DNA from: an uncultured Paraprevotella sp.
GTDB taxonomy: Bacteria > Bacteroidota > Bacteroidia > Bacteroidales > Bacteroidaceae
Assembly (NCBI GenBank): GCA_944320765.1
Contig: CALUIS010000013.1
Span: 1-64,000 of the forward strand
Length of the DNA: 64,000 nucleotides
Reading direction: 5' to 3'
Positions 7,916 to 61,775 of this stretch are shown piece by piece. The first letter of the stretch is position 1; each line of letters starts with the position of its first letter. The notes beneath the pieces were generated by a model that made no database searches, was not told where the DNA came from, and was given only the letters and a program-made list of their open reading frames with translations. Position numbers and translations under genes: made by a program.

Positions 7916-8449
7916 GGCGGCGTCCCGTGGATGCCTTGTTCGCGCGGGCTGGCGGGGACGGGCGGAAATATGTGATTCTCGCGGGCTTGTGCCGAATCGT
8001 CCTGACGCGGGTTTGCCTTTTCCGGTTGCTTCCTGGCATCCGGGAACCCGTTCCGGGCGCACGGAATCCTTTCCCGTGTCAGCCGTATGGTGCCATGGGC
8101 GGCAATCTGTCATTTTGATTTTGTCAGCCTCCGCGTTCCATTTGGAGCGGAAAAGCCGTCCGAAGCCCCCTTTTTTACGGTTTTCAGCACTCCGGAAAAT
8201 CGCTTTGCGGCAAGAAATTTCCGTCTTTGCTGAGAGAATTTTCTTTCTTTGCTGAAAGAAATTCTGTTTTTGTCGCACAAGAACCGGTGCCTTTCCGGAG
8301 AAATGTAATATATGAGCATTTCTCCGCCCTTCCGGGGCTTTGTTTTTTAACAATTCTTCTCTGGATGGCTTTATGAAAGGAGGCCGGAACAATCCGGTTT
8401 AGCGGGTTTTGCTTTCATTTTGTCCGTGGATTGCCGATATTGCTTGACA
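7908..8449 (-). repeat. Dispersed intergenic repeat, copy A (reverse orientation, diverged)
   Basis: Read on the minus strand, this stretch shows the same ordered blocks as the copies at 34849-35364 and 59927-60442. These are a TTGTTAAAAA block, a stem-loop with GGAGAAATG/CATTTCTCC arms, a run of GAAATTTC / TTGCCGCAAAG words, the block AAGGGGGCTTCGGACGG, GGCTGACAC, and CCCGCGAGAATCACA near the end. It is about 540 bp, slightly longer than the other two. It has no credible gene. It sits between the 3' ends of convergent genes. Confidence 0.75.
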
Positions 8450-34848: not shown

Positions 34849-35364
34849 TGTCAAAAGGAAAGCGTAAGGAGGAATTTGCTATACCTTCCCATTCGCGGAA
34901 CGGGGCCGTCTGGACGGGAAATGTTAAAAATGGGCGGAAAACGGGGCGGAGAAATGCAATATACGAGCATTTCTCCGCCCCGTCCCGTTTTTTTGTGCGG
35001 CAAAAATGGAATTTCTTTGCTGAAAGAAATTTCTTTCTTGCCGCAAAGACGGAAATTTCTTGCCGCAAAGCGGTTTTCCTGCGTGTGGGAAGCGGGGAAA
35101 AAGGGGGCTTCGGGCGGTTTTCCGCTTCCAGACGGGGCGCGGCGGCGCACAAAATGCAAGTGACGGATTGTCGCCCGTAAGGCGGGACGGCTGACGCACG
35201 TGGTGATGCCGTCCGCATGGCGCGGGTTTCCGGCGGTCAGGATGTCGGCGGAAAGGGCGGATTCCTGTCATACTGTCCCGCCGCAAGGCCGCGAGAATCG
35301 CGTATTTCCGTCCGCCCCCGCCTTGCGTCCCGGATGCGGCAGCCATGCGCGGCCGTTTTTGACA
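34849..35364 (+). repeat. Dispersed intergenic repeat, copy B
   Basis: 516 bp bounded by TGTCAAAA (34849-34856) and TTTTGACA (35357-35364). Inside are a perfect stem-loop with arms containing GGAGAAATGC/GCATTTCTCC (about 34945-34982), a run of GAAATTTC and TTGCCGCAAAG words (34995-35071), GGGGGCTTCGGGCGG (about 35103-35117), and GCGAGAATCGCG near the right end. The same blocks occur in the same order in copy C at nearly the same offsets. Non-coding. Confidence 0.85.
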
Positions 35365-55109: not shown

Positions 55110-58100
55110 TTAATAATCCCGTTGCACGTCGGCAATCTTCTGCTGCAGCTTGCGCATCTGCTCTTCGGCCAGCACCCGCTTGTATTCGATGGGGGTCACC
55201 TGGATGAACTCCTCCACGTAGCGCGGCCATTCGTCCAGCATCGTGCGGGCCAGCTTGGAACCCGTGTAGAGGTAGTGCTGGCGGATGAGTTCGTGCAGTT
55301 CCTTGCGCGAGGCGGAGTCTTCCAGCAGGGAGAGTTCCACCATCTCCATGTTGCAGAAATAGTCGAACGTGTGGTTCTTGTCCCAGACGTAGGCCACGCC
55401 GCCGCTCATTCCCGCGGCGAAGTTGCGGCCCGTCTCGCCCAGCACGACCACCCGTCCGCCGGTCATGTATTCGCAGCAATGGTCGCCCGTGCCTTCCACC
55501 ACGGCGATGGCACCCGAGTTGCGCACGGCGAAGCGTTCGCCCACCCGTCCGTTGATGTAGACCTCGCCGCTTGTGGCGCCGTATAATATGGTATTGCCCG
55601 CGATGGTGTTGTTCTCCGCCTCGAAGTCCGAGCGGACGGGAGGCTGCACGGAGATGTGTCCGCCGCTCAGCCCTTTGCCCAGGTAGTCGTTCGCCTCGCC
55701 TTCGAGCTTGAAGCTGATGCCGTGTGCCAGGAAGGCGCCGAAGCTCTGTCCGGCCGAGCCTTTGAATTTCACGTTGAGGGTCTGTTCCGGCAGTCCGGCG
55801 TTGCCGTAGCGTGCGGCCACGGCCCCCGAGAGCATGGCACCCACGGAACGGTCGGTGTTGGCGATGGCATATTCCAGCGACATTTCTTTCTTCTGTTCGA
55901 TGGCGTCGTGGGCGGCGGCCAGGATTTCCACGTCTTTCACGTGTTCGATGTCGTGGTGCTGGTCGGTCGTGTGGTGGATGTCGGCATCGTTCTCCACCTT
56001 GTGCAGCAGGCGGCCGAAGTCGAGCAGGGCGGTCTTCGTGTCCTTCTCGCGCGGCTTGATGTCTATCAGGTCGGTGCGTCCCACGATGTCCTCCAGCCGC
56101 GTGAATCCCATCTCGGCCAGATACTCGCGCACTTCCTGTGCCAGGAAGCGGAAGTAGTTCACCACATATTTATAATGCCCGCGGAAGTGTTCGCGCAGCC
56201 TGGGATCTTGCGTGGCCACGCCTACGGGGCAGAGGTTCGTGTGGCATTTGCGCATCATCACGCAGCCCAGCACGATCAGGGCCGTCGTGCCGAAGCCGAA
56301 CTCCTCCGCTCCGAGCAGGGCCATGCTGATGATATCCCGCCCGGTCTTGAGCTGCCCGTCGGTCTGCAGGCGCACCTTTCCGCGCAGCCCGTTGAGCACC
56401 AACGTCTGTTGCGTCTCGCTCAGGCCGATTTCGGGCGGGATTCCCGCGTAGCGCATGGACGAGGCCGGAGAGGCCCCCGTGCCGCCTTCCGCGCCGGAGA
56501 TGACGATGAGGTCGGCCTTGGCCTTGGCCACGCCGGCGGCGATGGTGCCCACGCCGCTTTCGGCCACCAGCTTCACGCTGATCTTGGCTTTCGGGTTGAC
56601 ATTCTTCAGGTCGAAGATCAGCTGTGCCAGGTCCTCGATGGAGTAGATGTCGTGGTGGGGCGGGGGGGAGATGAGCGAGATGCCCGGGATGGAGTGGCGG
56701 GTCTTGGCGATGACCTCGTCCACCTTGAAGCCGGGGAGCTGCCCGCCTTCGCCCGGTTTCGCGCCTTGTGCCACCTTGATTTGTATTTCCTCGGCGTTGA
56801 CGAGGTATTCCGCTGTCACGCCGAAACGCCCCGAGGCAATCTGCTTGGTCTTGCTGTTCAGCGAGATGCCGTCGTGGCTCTCATGGAAACGGTCGCTGTC
56901 CTCGCCGCCCTCGCCGGTGTTGCTTCTCGCGCCCAGCTCGTTCATGGCCAGGGCCAACGCCTCGTGGGCTTCCTTGCTGATGGCGCCGAACGACATGGCT
57001 CCCGTGACGAAATGGCGGACGATGTCTTCCACCGGTTCCACCCGGTCGATGTCAATCGGGTTACGCTTGAAGCTGAAGAAGTCGCGCAGGAAGATGGGGC
57101 GGTCCTTCTCGTCCGCCAGGCGGGTGAATTCCTTGAACTTCTTGTAGCTGCCCGTGCGGGTGGCCAGCTGGAGCGTGGAGATGGTTTCCGGGTTCCAGGC
57201 ATGGCGCTCGCCGTCCTTGCGGTAGGAGAACAGCCCGATGTGCGGGAGCAGGCCGTCCGTCTCTTCCGGGCCGAAGCCTGCCGCGTGGAATGCGGCATAG
57301 TCCCGTGCGATTTCTTCCAGGCGGATGCCGCCGATGGTGGATGTGGCAGTGCCGAAATAAGCCTTGAGCAGCTCCTCGCCCAGTCCCACGGCCTCGAAAA
57401 TCTTGGCCCCGCGGTAGGAGCGGATGGTGCTGATGCCCATCTTGCTCATGATTTTGTAGAGGCCCTTGCAGACGGCCTTGATGTAGTTCTTTTCCGCCGT
57501 CTCGTAGTTCATCTGTATTTCCCCCCGCTTCACCAGGTCGTCCAGCACGGCGAACGCCATGTAAGGATTGATGGCGCTGGCCCCGTAGCCCAGCAGCAGG
57601 GCGGCGTGCATCACCTCGCGGATTTCGCCGCTCTCCACCACCAAGGCGGTCTGCACCCGCTTCTGGACGGAAATCAAATGGTGGTGCACCGCACTGACAG
57701 CCAGTAGCGAAGGGATGGCCGCATGGGTGGAATCCACGCCACGGTCGGAGAGGATGATATAGTTCACCCCGTTGTCCACCGACGCTTCGGCTTTTCGGCA
57801 CAAGTCGTCCAAGGCTTCCTGCAGGGCGGCTTTTCCGCGGGCTGCCTCGAATGTGATAGAGAGCTTCACGGTGTTGAAGCCTTTATACCGGATGTTGCAG
57901 AGGATGTCCAGCTGCGTGTTGGTCAGCACGGGATGGGGCAGGCGCACCATCTTGCAGTGCGTCTCGCTGGGTTGCAGGATGTTCATGCCCACGGCCCCGA
58001 TATATTCGGTGAGCGACATGACCAGTTCCTCGCGGATGGGGTCGATGGCCGGGTTCGTCACCTGGGCGAATTGCTGCCGGAAGTAGTTGAACAACAGCTG

Positions 58101-59633
58101 CGGCCTGTCCGACAGCACGGCCAGCGGCGTGTCGTTTCCCATGGAGGCCGTGGGTTCCGCCCCGTTTGCGGCCATAGGCATGAGGGTGCGTTCGATGTCC
58201 TCGCGGGTGTAGCCGAAGGTGCGGAGCCGCCGGCCGTAGTCCGGCACGCTGTTTTCCGCTTTCCGTCCGCTCCGCAGGGTGTCCAGCTCGATGCGGTTGG
58301 CGGACAGCCACTGGCGGTAGGGCTTGGCGGAGGCCAGCTGCTCCTTCAGCTCGCCATCGTAATAGATGCGGCCTTCCTGCGTGTCCACCAGCAGGATCTT
58401 GCCCGGCTGGAGCCGTCCTTTTTCCTTGATGTCGCCCGGCTCGAAGGGGATGACCCCCGCTTCGCTGGCCACGACCATCATGTCGTTTTTCGTGATGAGG
58501 TAGCGGGCCGGACGGAGGCCGTTGCGGTCGAGCATCCCGCCGGCATAGCGCCCGTCGCTGAACAGCAGGGCGGCCGGCCCGTCCCATGGCTCCATCAGGA
58601 TGGAGTGGTATTCGTAGAATGCCTTCAGGTCTTCGCTGATGGGGTTCTTGTCGTTGAACGATTCCGGGACGAGCATGGCCATGGCGTGCGGCAGGCTCAG
58701 TCCGGACATGACGAAGAACTCCAGCGCGTTGTCCAATGAGGCGCTGTCGCTCATGCCGGGCTGCAGGATGGGGCGTATCTGCCGGATGTCGCCCAGGGCG
58801 GGCGTGGAAAGCACGCTCTCGCGGGCTTCCATCCAGCCCCGGTTGCCCCGGATGGTGTTGATTTCCCCGTTGTGGGCCAGCAGCCGGAACGGTTGGGCCA
58901 GGCTCCATGTGGGGAACGTGTTGGTGCTGAACCGGGAATGCACCAGTGCCAGCCCGCTGGTGAAATACGGTTGGGTGAGGTCCGTGAAGTATTCCCGCAC
59001 TTGCGTGGACGACAGCATCCCTTTGTAGATGATATTCTTGCTTGACAGCGAGACGATATAAAAGTCTTTGTGGCGCACTTGGCGTTCTATCCTTTTCCGG
59101 ATGAGATAGAGGCTTCGTTCCAGATTGCCCGTATGCGACGCCCCCGTGACGAACACCTGCTTGATGTCCGGTTCGGTGGCGGCCGCGTCTTTTCCCAGAA
59201 TCTCGGAACGCACCGGCACGTTGCGCAAGTGCATGAGGTTCAACCCTTCGCGCTCAATCTCTTCTATCATCACGCTCAGGATGCGGGCTTGTTCCTTTTC
59301 CTCCTTGGGAAGGAACACCAGCCCCGTGCCGTATTTTCCTTTTTCCGGCACGGGTATGCCTTGCAGCAGGATGAACTCGTGGGGAATCTGGAGCATGATG
59401 CCGGCCCCGTCGCCCGTCTTGTTGTCCGCTCCTTCCGCGCCGCGGTGCTTCATGTTCTCCAGCACTTTCAGTGCCGCGTCCACGAGTTCGTGCGATTTGT
59501 TCCCGTGGATGTTCACAATCATTCCCACGCCGCAGGCGTCGTGTTCGTTTGCCGCGTCATACAGGCCGGCTTGTGCGTCGGCCCGGCGTGGTCGTTCTTC
59601 TTCTTTTGCTTTGATAAAAAGTTTTCTTTTCAT
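55110..59633 (-). CDS. gltB: Glutamate synthase, large (alpha) subunit
   Basis: A 1507-residue enzyme. After a propeptide of 33 residues, Cys34 in EHDACGVGM is the Ntn glutaminase nucleophile. Then come the central domain, the FMN-binding synthase domain (TGAMSFGAISKEAHEALA, RSNTGEGGEDSDRF), the [3Fe-4S] motif CVMMRKCHTNLCPVGVATQ, and the GXGXG beta-helix repeat domain (GEVYINGRVGERFAVRNSGAIAVVEGTGDHC in part, GRVVVLGETGRNFAAGMSGG). Together with GltD it makes glutamate from 2-oxoglutarate and glutamine, completing the GS/GOGAT route whose GS lies in the operon at 35.6-40.4 kb. Confidence 0.97.
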   Translation of the reverse strand: MKRKLFIKAKEEERPRRADAQAGLYDAANEHDACGVGMIVNIHGNKSHELVDAALKVLENMKHRGAEGADNKTGDGAGIMLQIPHEFILLQGIPVPEKGKYGTGLVFLPKEEKEQARILSVMIEEIEREGLNLMHLRNVPVRSEILGKDAAATEPDIKQVFVTGASHTGNLERSLYLIRKRIERQVRHKDFYIVSLSSKNIIYKGMLSSTQVREYFTDLTQPYFTSGLALVHSRFSTNTFPTWSLAQPFRLLAHNGEINTIRGNRGWMEARESVLSTPALGDIRQIRPILQPGMSDSASLDNALEFFVMSGLSLPHAMAMLVPESFNDKNPISEDLKAFYEYHSILMEPWDGPAALLFSDGRYAGGMLDRNGLRPARYLITKNDMMVVASEAGVIPFEPGDIKEKGRLQPGKILLVDTQEGRIYYDGELKEQLASAKPYRQWLSANRIELDTLRSGRKAENSVPDYGRRLRTFGYTREDIERTLMPMAANGAEPTASMGNDTPLAVLSDRPQLLFNYFRQQFAQVTNPAIDPIREELVMSLTEYIGAVGMNILQPSETHCKMVRLPHPVLTNTQLDILCNIRYKGFNTVKLSITFEAARGKAALQEALDDLCRKAEASVDNGVNYIILSDRGVDSTHAAIPSLLAVSAVHHHLISVQKRVQTALVVESGEIREVMHAALLLGYGASAINPYMAFAVLDDLVKRGEIQMNYETAEKNYIKAVCKGLYKIMSKMGISTIRSYRGAKIFEAVGLGEELLKAYFGTATSTIGGIRLEEIARDYAAFHAAGFGPEETDGLLPHIGLFSYRKDGERHAWNPETISTLQLATRTGSYKKFKEFTRLADEKDRPIFLRDFFSFKRNPIDIDRVEPVEDIVRHFVTGAMSFGAISKEAHEALALAMNELGARSNTGEGGEDSDRFHESHDGISLNSKTKQIASGRFGVTAEYLVNAEEIQIKVAQGAKPGEGGQLPGFKVDEVIAKTRHSIPGISLISPPPHHDIYSIEDLAQLIFDLKNVNPKAKISVKLVAESGVGTIAAGVAKAKADLIVISGAEGGTGASPASSMRYAGIPPEIGLSETQQTLVLNGLRGKVRLQTDGQLKTGRDIISMALLGAEEFGFGTTALIVLGCVMMRKCHTNLCPVGVATQDPRLREHFRGHYKYVVNYFRFLAQEVREYLAEMGFTRLEDIVGRTDLIDIKPREKDTKTALLDFGRLLHKVENDADIHHTTDQHHDIEHVKDVEILAAAHDAIEQKKEMSLEYAIANTDRSVGAMLSGAVAARYGNAGLPEQTLNVKFKGSAGQSFGAFLAHGISFKLEGEANDYLGKGLSGGHISVQPPVRSDFEAENNTIAGNTILYGATSGEVYINGRVGERFAVRNSGAIAVVEGTGDHCCEYMTGGRVVVLGETGRNFAAGMSGGVAYVWDKNHTFDYFCNMEMVELSLLEDSASRKELHELIRQHYLYTGSKLARTMLDEWPRYVEEFIQVTPIEYKRVLAEEQMRKLQQKIADVQRDY

Positions 59634-59926: not shown

Positions 59927-60442
59927 TGTCAAAAAGGAAGGTTTTCCGCCAGATTCCGCGTCCGTGCGGTGGGGCGGCAAGGCGGAAACAGGTGCCGAAT
60001 TGTTAAAAAACAGGCGCGGGAACTGTCCGTATGGAGCATTTCTCCGCCTTGGCGGGCGTTTTCGTGCGGCAAAAACGGAATTTCTTTGCTGAAAGAAATT
60101 TCTTTCTTGCCGCAAGGACGCAAATTTCTTGCCGCAAAGAAATTCCCGGGAGTGTGGAAAGCGGGGAAAAGCGGGGCTTCGGGCCGGTTTTTCCTTCTGG
60201 TTGGAGGCCGCCCGCGTGCGAGACCCATTTGTCCTTTTGCCGGCTTTTTCCTTCACGGGCTGACGCGTGGACGGCATCCGTCCGCACGGCATCCCGCAGC
60301 GGGCGGCAAAGTGTCGCGGGAACCCGGCTTCCGGCTTTCATCCTGCATTTCCGCAGGCCCGCGAGGTTCGCGCATTTTCGCCCGCGCCCGTCCTTGCGCC
60401 CGTCCGCGCGATTCTCGCGGGGCTGGTTTTGACGTTTTGACA
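59927..60442 (+). repeat. Dispersed intergenic repeat, copy C
   Basis: 516 bp from TGTCAAAA (59927-59934) to TTTTGACA (60435-60442), the same length as copy B. Shared blocks in order: TTGTTAAAAA, GCATTTCTCCGCC (left arm of the stem-loop has decayed here), GTGCGGCAAAAA, GAAATTTC/TTGCCGCAA words, GGGGCTTCGGGC, GGCTGACGC, a GCGAG-TTCGC palindrome, and TTTTGACAAAATG. It lies between gltB and the small RNA candidate. Non-coding. Confidence 0.85.
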
Positions 60443-60499: not shown

Positions 60500-60604
60500 A
60501 AAAAAATATCCCGTCTCTGTCCAGAGGCGGGATACAAAAACACAAAAACTAAACTAAACTTTTAACTAAGCTATCCTTTAAAGTTTCACAACTTTATTTG
60601 TTCG
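60500..60604 (-). ncRNA. Candidate stand-alone small RNA, about 105 nt
   Basis: The segment has its own promoter (60608-60638) and ends at a Rho-independent terminator. It is AT-rich compared with the rest of the window. The 5' half can fold: AAACTTTAA pairs with TTAAAAGTTT across the loop AGGATAGCTTAG. It has no open frame with a credible start. The gap between the aroC stop and the promoter (about 60 bp) and the promoter itself argue against it being just the 3' end of the aroC mRNA, though read-through may add to it. Confidence 0.55.
60507..60534 (-). terminator. Terminator of the small RNA candidate / aroC transcript
   Basis: 12-bp stem (60507-60518 with 60523-60534, one G-T pair), 4-base loop, followed on the minus strand by seven T (60506-60500). 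Confidence 0.88.
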
Positions 60605-60607
60605 GCT

Positions 60608-60638
60608 CAAAGGTACTCCTTTTTGGGGAACTCTCCAA
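60608..60638 (-). promoter_or_regulatory. Promoter of the small RNA candidate
   Basis: On the minus strand: TTG (60638-60636), 20 bp, TACCTTTG (60615-60608). Matches the Bacteroidetes consensus, predicted start near 60604. No gene follows before the terminator. Confidence 0.65.
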
Positions 60639-60698
60639 GCGGAATCTATAAAAGGACGCTTTTTTTCTACGAAAAAGAACATTTTTTCCGCCTTCGGG

Positions 60699-61775
60699 TC
60701 AAAGACGGACGGTCTTGTCCAGCAGATAGTAGTCCAACACGGTCATGGCGGCCATGGCTTCTACGATGGGGACTGCGCGGGGGAGGACGCACGGGTCGTG
60801 GCGCCCGCGGGCTTTTAAGGTGGTGGGAGTGCCGTCCAGCGTGACGGTCTCTTGTTCCATGAGAAGGGTGGCCACCGGTTTGAACGCCACCCTGAAGTAG
60901 ATGTCCTCGCCGTTGCTGATGCCTCCTTGTATGCCTCCGCTGTGGTTGGTGCGTGTCCCGATTCTGCCGTCCTTGAGGATGAAGGCGTCGTTCTGTTCGC
61001 TTCCGCGTTGGCTTGCCCCGGCGAATCCCAAGCCGTATTCAAAACCTTTCACGGCATTGATGCCCAACATGGCTCCGCCCAATGCGGCGTGGAACTTTCC
61101 GAATACCGGTTCCCCCAATCCTGCGGGGCAGTGCTTGATGACTCCCGTGATGACTCCCCCGACGGTGTCGCCTTGTGCTTTCACCTCGGCAATCAGACGT
61201 TCCATTTCGGCCGCTTTTTGAGGGTCCGGACAGCGTACGGGATTGCTTTCAACCAAGGACGGGTCGTAGTGGGTATAATCTTGTTCCAAGGAGATGGGAC
61301 CCACTTGGGACGTGTAGGCGTAAACCTCCACTCCGATTTGCCGGAGGGCCAGCTTGGCCAGGGCGCCTCCCACGCAGCGGGCGATGGTCTCGCGGGCGGA
61401 AGAACGCCCGCCGCCCGCGTGGTCGCGGATGCCGTATTTCCGGGTATACGTGAAATCGGCATGTGACGGGCGGAAAAGGTTCCGTATGTTGTCGTAGTCG
61501 TTGGAATGCTGGTTGGTGTTGCGGACCAGGAAGCCGATGGGGCATCCGGTGGACTGGCCTTCGAACACGCCGGAGAGCAGTTCCACCCGGTCCGCTTCCT
61601 TGCGGGGCGTGGTGATGCTGCTTTGTCCCGGCCTTCTCCGGTCGAGTTCATGTTGGATGAAGTCCATGTCGATGCCTATGCCGGCGGGGAATCCGTCGAT
61701 GACTCCCCCCACGCCCGGTCCGTGGCTTTCCCCGAAAGATGTCAGGCGGAAAATATGGCCGAATGTGTTGCTCAT
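60699..61775 (-). CDS. aroC: Chorismate synthase
   Basis: A 358-residue enzyme making chorismate from EPSP, with a reduced flavin cofactor. Signature blocks are present: [20 protein letters not shown] at the N-terminus, [36 protein letters not shown] (the second signature), and [17 protein letters not shown] (third). Complete. It starts 30 bp after slyD and is likely in one transcript with it. Confidence 0.97.

Follow-up and report, generated by a model that had tools for sequence, protein, structure and literature searches.

A gene for a small RNA (sRNA) of about 100 nt very probably lies downstream of aroC in an uncultured Paraprevotella. The RNA is, judged by its sequence, a distant and hitherto unlisted relative of Bacteroides BTnc049, divergent within this known kind of sRNA. 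The gene is located in the window (the whole 64-kb stretch of DNA that was analysed), which comes from a 2.93-Mb genome that is assembled in 48 contigs and 99.98% complete. It is carried on the minus strand, with aroC on one side and gltB on the other. An earlier note on this DNA had proposed an independent sRNA with its own promoter and terminator, and this layout is supported by Rfam homology, by the conservation of its parts and by the occurrence of homologues behind two different upstream genes. The features are:

61775-60699, minus strand (60699-61775 in forward numbering): aroC, chorismate synthase, upstream neighbour of the sRNA (Pfam PF01264 and synteny)
60636..60638, minus strand: -33 promoter element TTG (sequence; conserved in an 11-species alignment)
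60608..60615, minus strand: -7 promoter box TACCTTTG (TAnnTTTG; sequence and conservation in homologues)
60500..60602, minus strand: sRNA, about 100 nt (RF04179/BTnc049 match and conservation)
60579..60596, minus strand: 5′ hairpin UAAAGUU-GUGA-AACUUUA with a GNRA tetraloop (fold centroid and covariation)
60539..60569, minus strand: near-invariant unpaired core UUAGUUAAAAGUUUAGUUUAGUUUUUGUGUU (alignments A1 and A2)
60500..60535, minus strand: intrinsic terminator, a hairpin of 12 pairs and one mismatch followed by seven T (fold)
55110-59633, minus strand: gltB, next gene downstream on the same strand

The promoter and the Rfam alignment would place the 5′ end of the RNA somewhere within 60599-60604, and the T run would set its 3′ end. 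The body of the RNA (60532-60602) has a G+C content of 22.5% versus 58.5% across the window, a level reached by just 0.07% of 71-nt windows, in agreement with its earlier description as AT-rich in a GC-rich region. Folded as a whole, the RNA has an energy that is only mildly out of line with shuffled sequences (z -1.4 to -1.9). The body had also been said to contain no open frame. This holds insofar as none spans it, and fails for frames with TTG/GTG starts at 60545/60543 that cross the terminator leftwards; nothing suggests that these are genes.

Relationship to BTnc049

An Infernal-type search, proposed in the earlier note as a check, yielded a match to RF04179 (BTnc049) at 60601-60499 of the minus strand in a permissive Rfam scan, with 62.9 bits over model positions 1-111. 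Its E-value is 9.4e-11 locally and 2.0e-10 genome-wide, and it is the top match of the genome, the runner-up scoring 26 bits. The gathering score of RF04179 is 81.9 bits; a scan of the window at gathering thresholds gave no match, and by the Rfam rule the sRNA is therefore not called a member. The match is a significant one, full-length in sequence and structure, and the family's 5′ hairpin, conserved core and terminator are all present. The two RNAs share a 5′ hairpin with a GUGA loop, a UUAGUUAA...UUUAGUUUAGUUUUUGUGUU core and a terminator in the same order. They differ by two added A residues in the core, a U replacing a C and another terminator in the window sRNA, and also in their surroundings: the window sRNA stands behind aroC, whereas BTnc049 stands behind LytTR, the Bacteroides neighbourhood. 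The window sequence could form the outer ACAGA/UUUGU pairing of the model, here as ACAAA/UUUGU; judged by eye, many Prevotella have not kept it.

The RF04179 threshold was passed by five of the 15 loci scanned, only those from Bacteroides and Phocaeicola; the entry is fitted to Bacteroides-like sequences. BTnc049 is not mentioned by name in the literature searched and thus offers no function to lean on, and no Prevotella sRNA map was found there either. BTnc201 (MasB, RF04177) is alike in its length of about 100 nt, a hairpin containing GUGA and a U/G-rich stretch ahead of the terminator, but the RF04177 match reaches only 20.1 bits, where the cut-off is 105, so that the window sRNA is not a member of that family. 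The window scan also returned a PyrR match of 25.6 bits (cut-off 54), which was judged to be due to chance.

Promoter

The minus-strand promoter proposed earlier was recovered, with TTG at 60638-60636 and the box TACCTTTG at 60615-60608, separated by 20 nt. The pattern alone is unremarkable (TTG-N19..21-TAnnTTTG occurs 11 times in the 64-kb window); what makes it convincing is its conservation in relatives. Across 11 aligned Paraprevotella, conservation extends over the -7 box and a large part of the -33 region; the latter reads GCTTGGA in the window and GTTTGGA or ATTTGGA in most Paraprevotella relatives. Among the matches listed, 132 of 136 loci have TAnnTTTG within 110 nt upstream of the core, where shuffles lead to an expectation of 11.9, and it mostly lies 52-59 nt before the core.

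Further upstream (60640-60690), GTAGAAAAAAA and GTAGATT blocks are conserved in most of the 11 Paraprevotella, with the GTAGAAAAAAA block standing directly after aroC. This region might be an UP-like element or a regulator site.

RNA structure

The 5′ hairpin is conserved and shows compensatory changes. In 60 sequences, 93.4% of the cells of its five pairs are paired, and its covariation score of 0.470 exceeds both the 0.211 of shuffles and the values obtained when the pairing is slid, which reach at most 0.063. All four nucleotides are used as the N of its GNRA loop across homologues: a simple search of the 136 loci listed found GUGA in 86, GAGA in 4, GGGA in 4 and GCGA in 3. A long A/T hairpin with the loop AGGATAGCTTAG, which the earlier note had drawn in the body, is absent from the predicted centroid and is not conserved; with 56.2% of cells paired and a covariation score of 0.032 versus 0.031 in shuffles, it was rejected.

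Between the hairpin and the terminator lies the almost C-free core, whose consensus is UUAGUUAA(AA)GUYUAGUUUAGUUUUUGUGUU and which is a candidate seed or protein-binding stretch. It is identical in the 11 Paraprevotella genomes of the alignment, whereas the surrounding spacer varies, and these loci were found by the Rfam covariance model and not by the core pattern. From locus L029 onwards, the 3′ 21 nt of the core were fixed by the search pattern, so that this part of the invariance reflects the choice of loci; TTAGTTAA, which lies outside the pattern, is nearly invariant too. The core is altered in some Paraprevotella (L020, L021 and L022).

The terminator with seven T, as first described, is borne out by folding: a hairpin of 12 pairs at 60535-60506 runs into a T run at 60506-60500. 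Its sequence varies among homologues, and its pairs show compensatory changes on both sides (alignment A1). A simple terminator scanner run over the window missed it, probably owing to a mismatch within the stem.

Distribution and genomic neighbourhood

Conservation of the block among related genomes, a further check named in the earlier note, is extensive. The RF04179 search found homologues in 23 of 61 relatives' genomes, all from the same GTDB family. The core DNA pattern matched at least 119 stretches, from Bacteroides, Phocaeicola, Mediterranea, Prevotella and its segregates, Alloprevotella, Paraprevotella or organisms named to a higher rank only. A covariance model built from 60 sequences (R1) matches 179 of 298 sampled genomes of the family, almost always in single copy, and two of 296 genomes in a phylum-wide sample, both in the same family. 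About 40% of the family sample, including Paraprevotella G008 and G016, gave no match to R1 in a search run with stricter filters, by which weak matches may be lost. The RNA is carried by eight of ten near-complete Paraprevotella in this sample. Phocaeicola vulgatus NC_009614 has a second core-plus-terminator copy (L113) whose 5′ part is without the GUGA hairpin, possibly a truncated paralogue. One locus, L088, has no clear terminator and looks like a chance pattern match.

The neighbourhood was counted at 107 pattern loci among the matches listed, each with at least 400 nt of upstream sequence. At 82 of these 107 loci, aroC ends no more than 600 nt upstream on the same strand, the median distance to the core being 121 nt; at 16 a LytTR response regulator gene takes its place, and at nine neither gene is found. 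The aroC side comprises Prevotella, Paraprevotella and Alloprevotella, and the LytTR side Bacteroides, Phocaeicola and Mediterranea. For example, the order in Bacteroides xylanisolvens is histidine kinase, LytTR regulator, RNA and integrase. In Alloprevotella tannerae (L136), aroC is on the opposite side of the RNA in reversed orientation. The neighbours thus vary while the RNA is kept, which argues that it is not merely a tail of aroC.

These data bear on three readings in which the locus would not be an sRNA gene of its own. The RNA could be just the terminator or 3′ end of the aroC transcript, that is, a 3′ UTR that is possibly processed. In most genomes of the Prevotella side, it does follow aroC on the same strand at a distance of about 120 nt, and read-through from aroC into its terminator is likely. 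However, a conserved promoter separates the two, aroC is not upstream at 25 of the 107 loci listed (16 of them behind LytTR), and the arrangement in L136 differs, so this origin is very unlikely. It is scarcely credible that the RNA is a leader or attenuator of gltB, which is on the same strand: the distance of about 870 nt is too great, gltB is adjacent in some Paraprevotella only, and elsewhere other genes follow, such as an opposite-strand gene (L036) or the Bacteroides integrase (L037). A chance AT-rich stretch resembling a promoter and a terminator would fit the 11 occurrences of the promoter pattern in the window and the modest folding z-score, but it is contradicted by homology and by conservation in well over 100 genomes and can be regarded as practically negligible.

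An interspersed intergenic repeat is present in the window at 60034-60216, 34965-35147 and 8151-8322, with a length of 183 nt and 80% identity between direct copies, the inverted copy having 172 nt and 71%. One copy occupies the gap of about 870 nt between the sRNA and gltB; the same gap is about 285 nt in the relative G007.

Proposed mode of action

Transcription of the sRNA would start from a housekeeping-type Bacteroidota promoter of its own, located in the spacer 3′ of aroC, and would stop at an intrinsic terminator that also belongs to the gene. Sequence and conservation both point to such a promoter and terminator, as expected of a trans-acting sRNA. The 5′ GNRA hairpin may protect and present the RNA, while the almost C-free unpaired core would use a short seed to pair with mRNAs, probably close to their translation starts, and thereby lower their expression. 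Homology, conservation of the promoter, hairpin, core and terminator are seen directly in the computed comparisons; expression in the source organism, the role of the hairpin, mRNA pairing, repression and the targets are predicted. Taken whole, a stand-alone, BTnc049-homologous sRNA gene whose core pairs with mRNAs to repress them is the likely explanation.

Action in trans through the core is plausible as the most likely mechanism by analogy with GibS, FopS, MasB and BatR. These characterised Bacteroides sRNAs all repress: GibS, FopS and BatR bind close to translation starts, MasB about 40 nt inside the coding region (PMC7366714, PMC11697453, PMC10861873, PMC10994844). FopS and GibS of B. thetaiotaomicron resemble the window sRNA in having an intrinsic terminator and an unpaired seed and in acting at translation starts, and FopS is also alike in its sigma-ABfr promoter (PMC11697453). 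FopS, however, is about 65-70 nt long, occurs in 14 copies, has a single-stranded 5′ end and is bound by RbpB (PMC11697453), whereas the window sRNA is about 100 nt long, single-copy and begins with a hairpin, and its genome encodes no RRM_1 protein.

The search for targets was made in the genus Paraprevotella with long core-complementary sites (16-21 nt), a length at which seeds of 7-10 nt escape, and gave no excess over a reversed-pattern control. A single complementary site recurs (G012, G014 and G015); it is inside a coding end, away from the translation start, in a frame that we take to resemble dnaX.

RRM_1 proteins are known binders and helpers of sRNAs in Bacteroides (B. thetaiotaomicron). 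The domain (PF00076) was found in 25 of 121 genomes overall, with one to four in several other genera of the family, and in none of ten near-complete Paraprevotella, the source genome included; the RRM_1 protein expected alongside an RbpB-associated sRNA is thus missing. Since eight of the ten carry the RNA, it is independent of an RbpB-type helper there.

Instead of an mRNA seed, the core could be the site at which a protein or the ribosome binds and is thereby titrated or guided. The core is almost invariant over about 30 nt, which exceeds the usual length of a seed, it is unpaired and composed of U, G and A only, and no surplus of complementary sites was found; another conserved RNA-like element of the source genome carries a similar UUUGUGUUUGUGUUG stretch ahead of its terminator. 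Against this, we know of no protein that binds such a core, RRM_1 is absent from the ten Paraprevotella, and the complementarity search covered long matches only and would miss seeds of 7-10 nt. Such a binding site is considered unlikely. A related and quite unlikely reading is that the RNA is a widely conserved, RRM-independent core regulator of the family whose invariant 30-nt C-free stretch works otherwise than by ordinary antisense pairing, for instance through contact with an undescribed RNA-binding protein or with the translation machinery.

The sRNA gene is a defined, single-copy locus that is easy to delete and suits the study of sRNA action in Bacteroidota without RRM_1. The BTnc049-type RNA spreads over Prevotella, Paraprevotella and Alloprevotella with a fixed place behind aroC, more widely than the Rfam entry suggests, and this range offers a way to correct the boundaries of RF04179.

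A second RNA-like element

Another sRNA-like element was noticed on the plus strand at L003 1501-1591 (G000:C20:46274-46364), and also in L023, L025, L026 and L027. In it, a stretch of 37 nt (AATAGTTTTGTCGTGTTTTATTTTGTGTTTGTGTTGT) that is the same in five Paraprevotella genomes precedes a GC-rich terminator. Its Rfam matches are weak (BTnc049 26 bits, BTnc201 21 bits). TAnnTTTG was not seen there, and a TATGTGAATAG-like block is conserved upstream. In the source genome, the element lies 3′ of a gene that, judged by reading, is galE-like.
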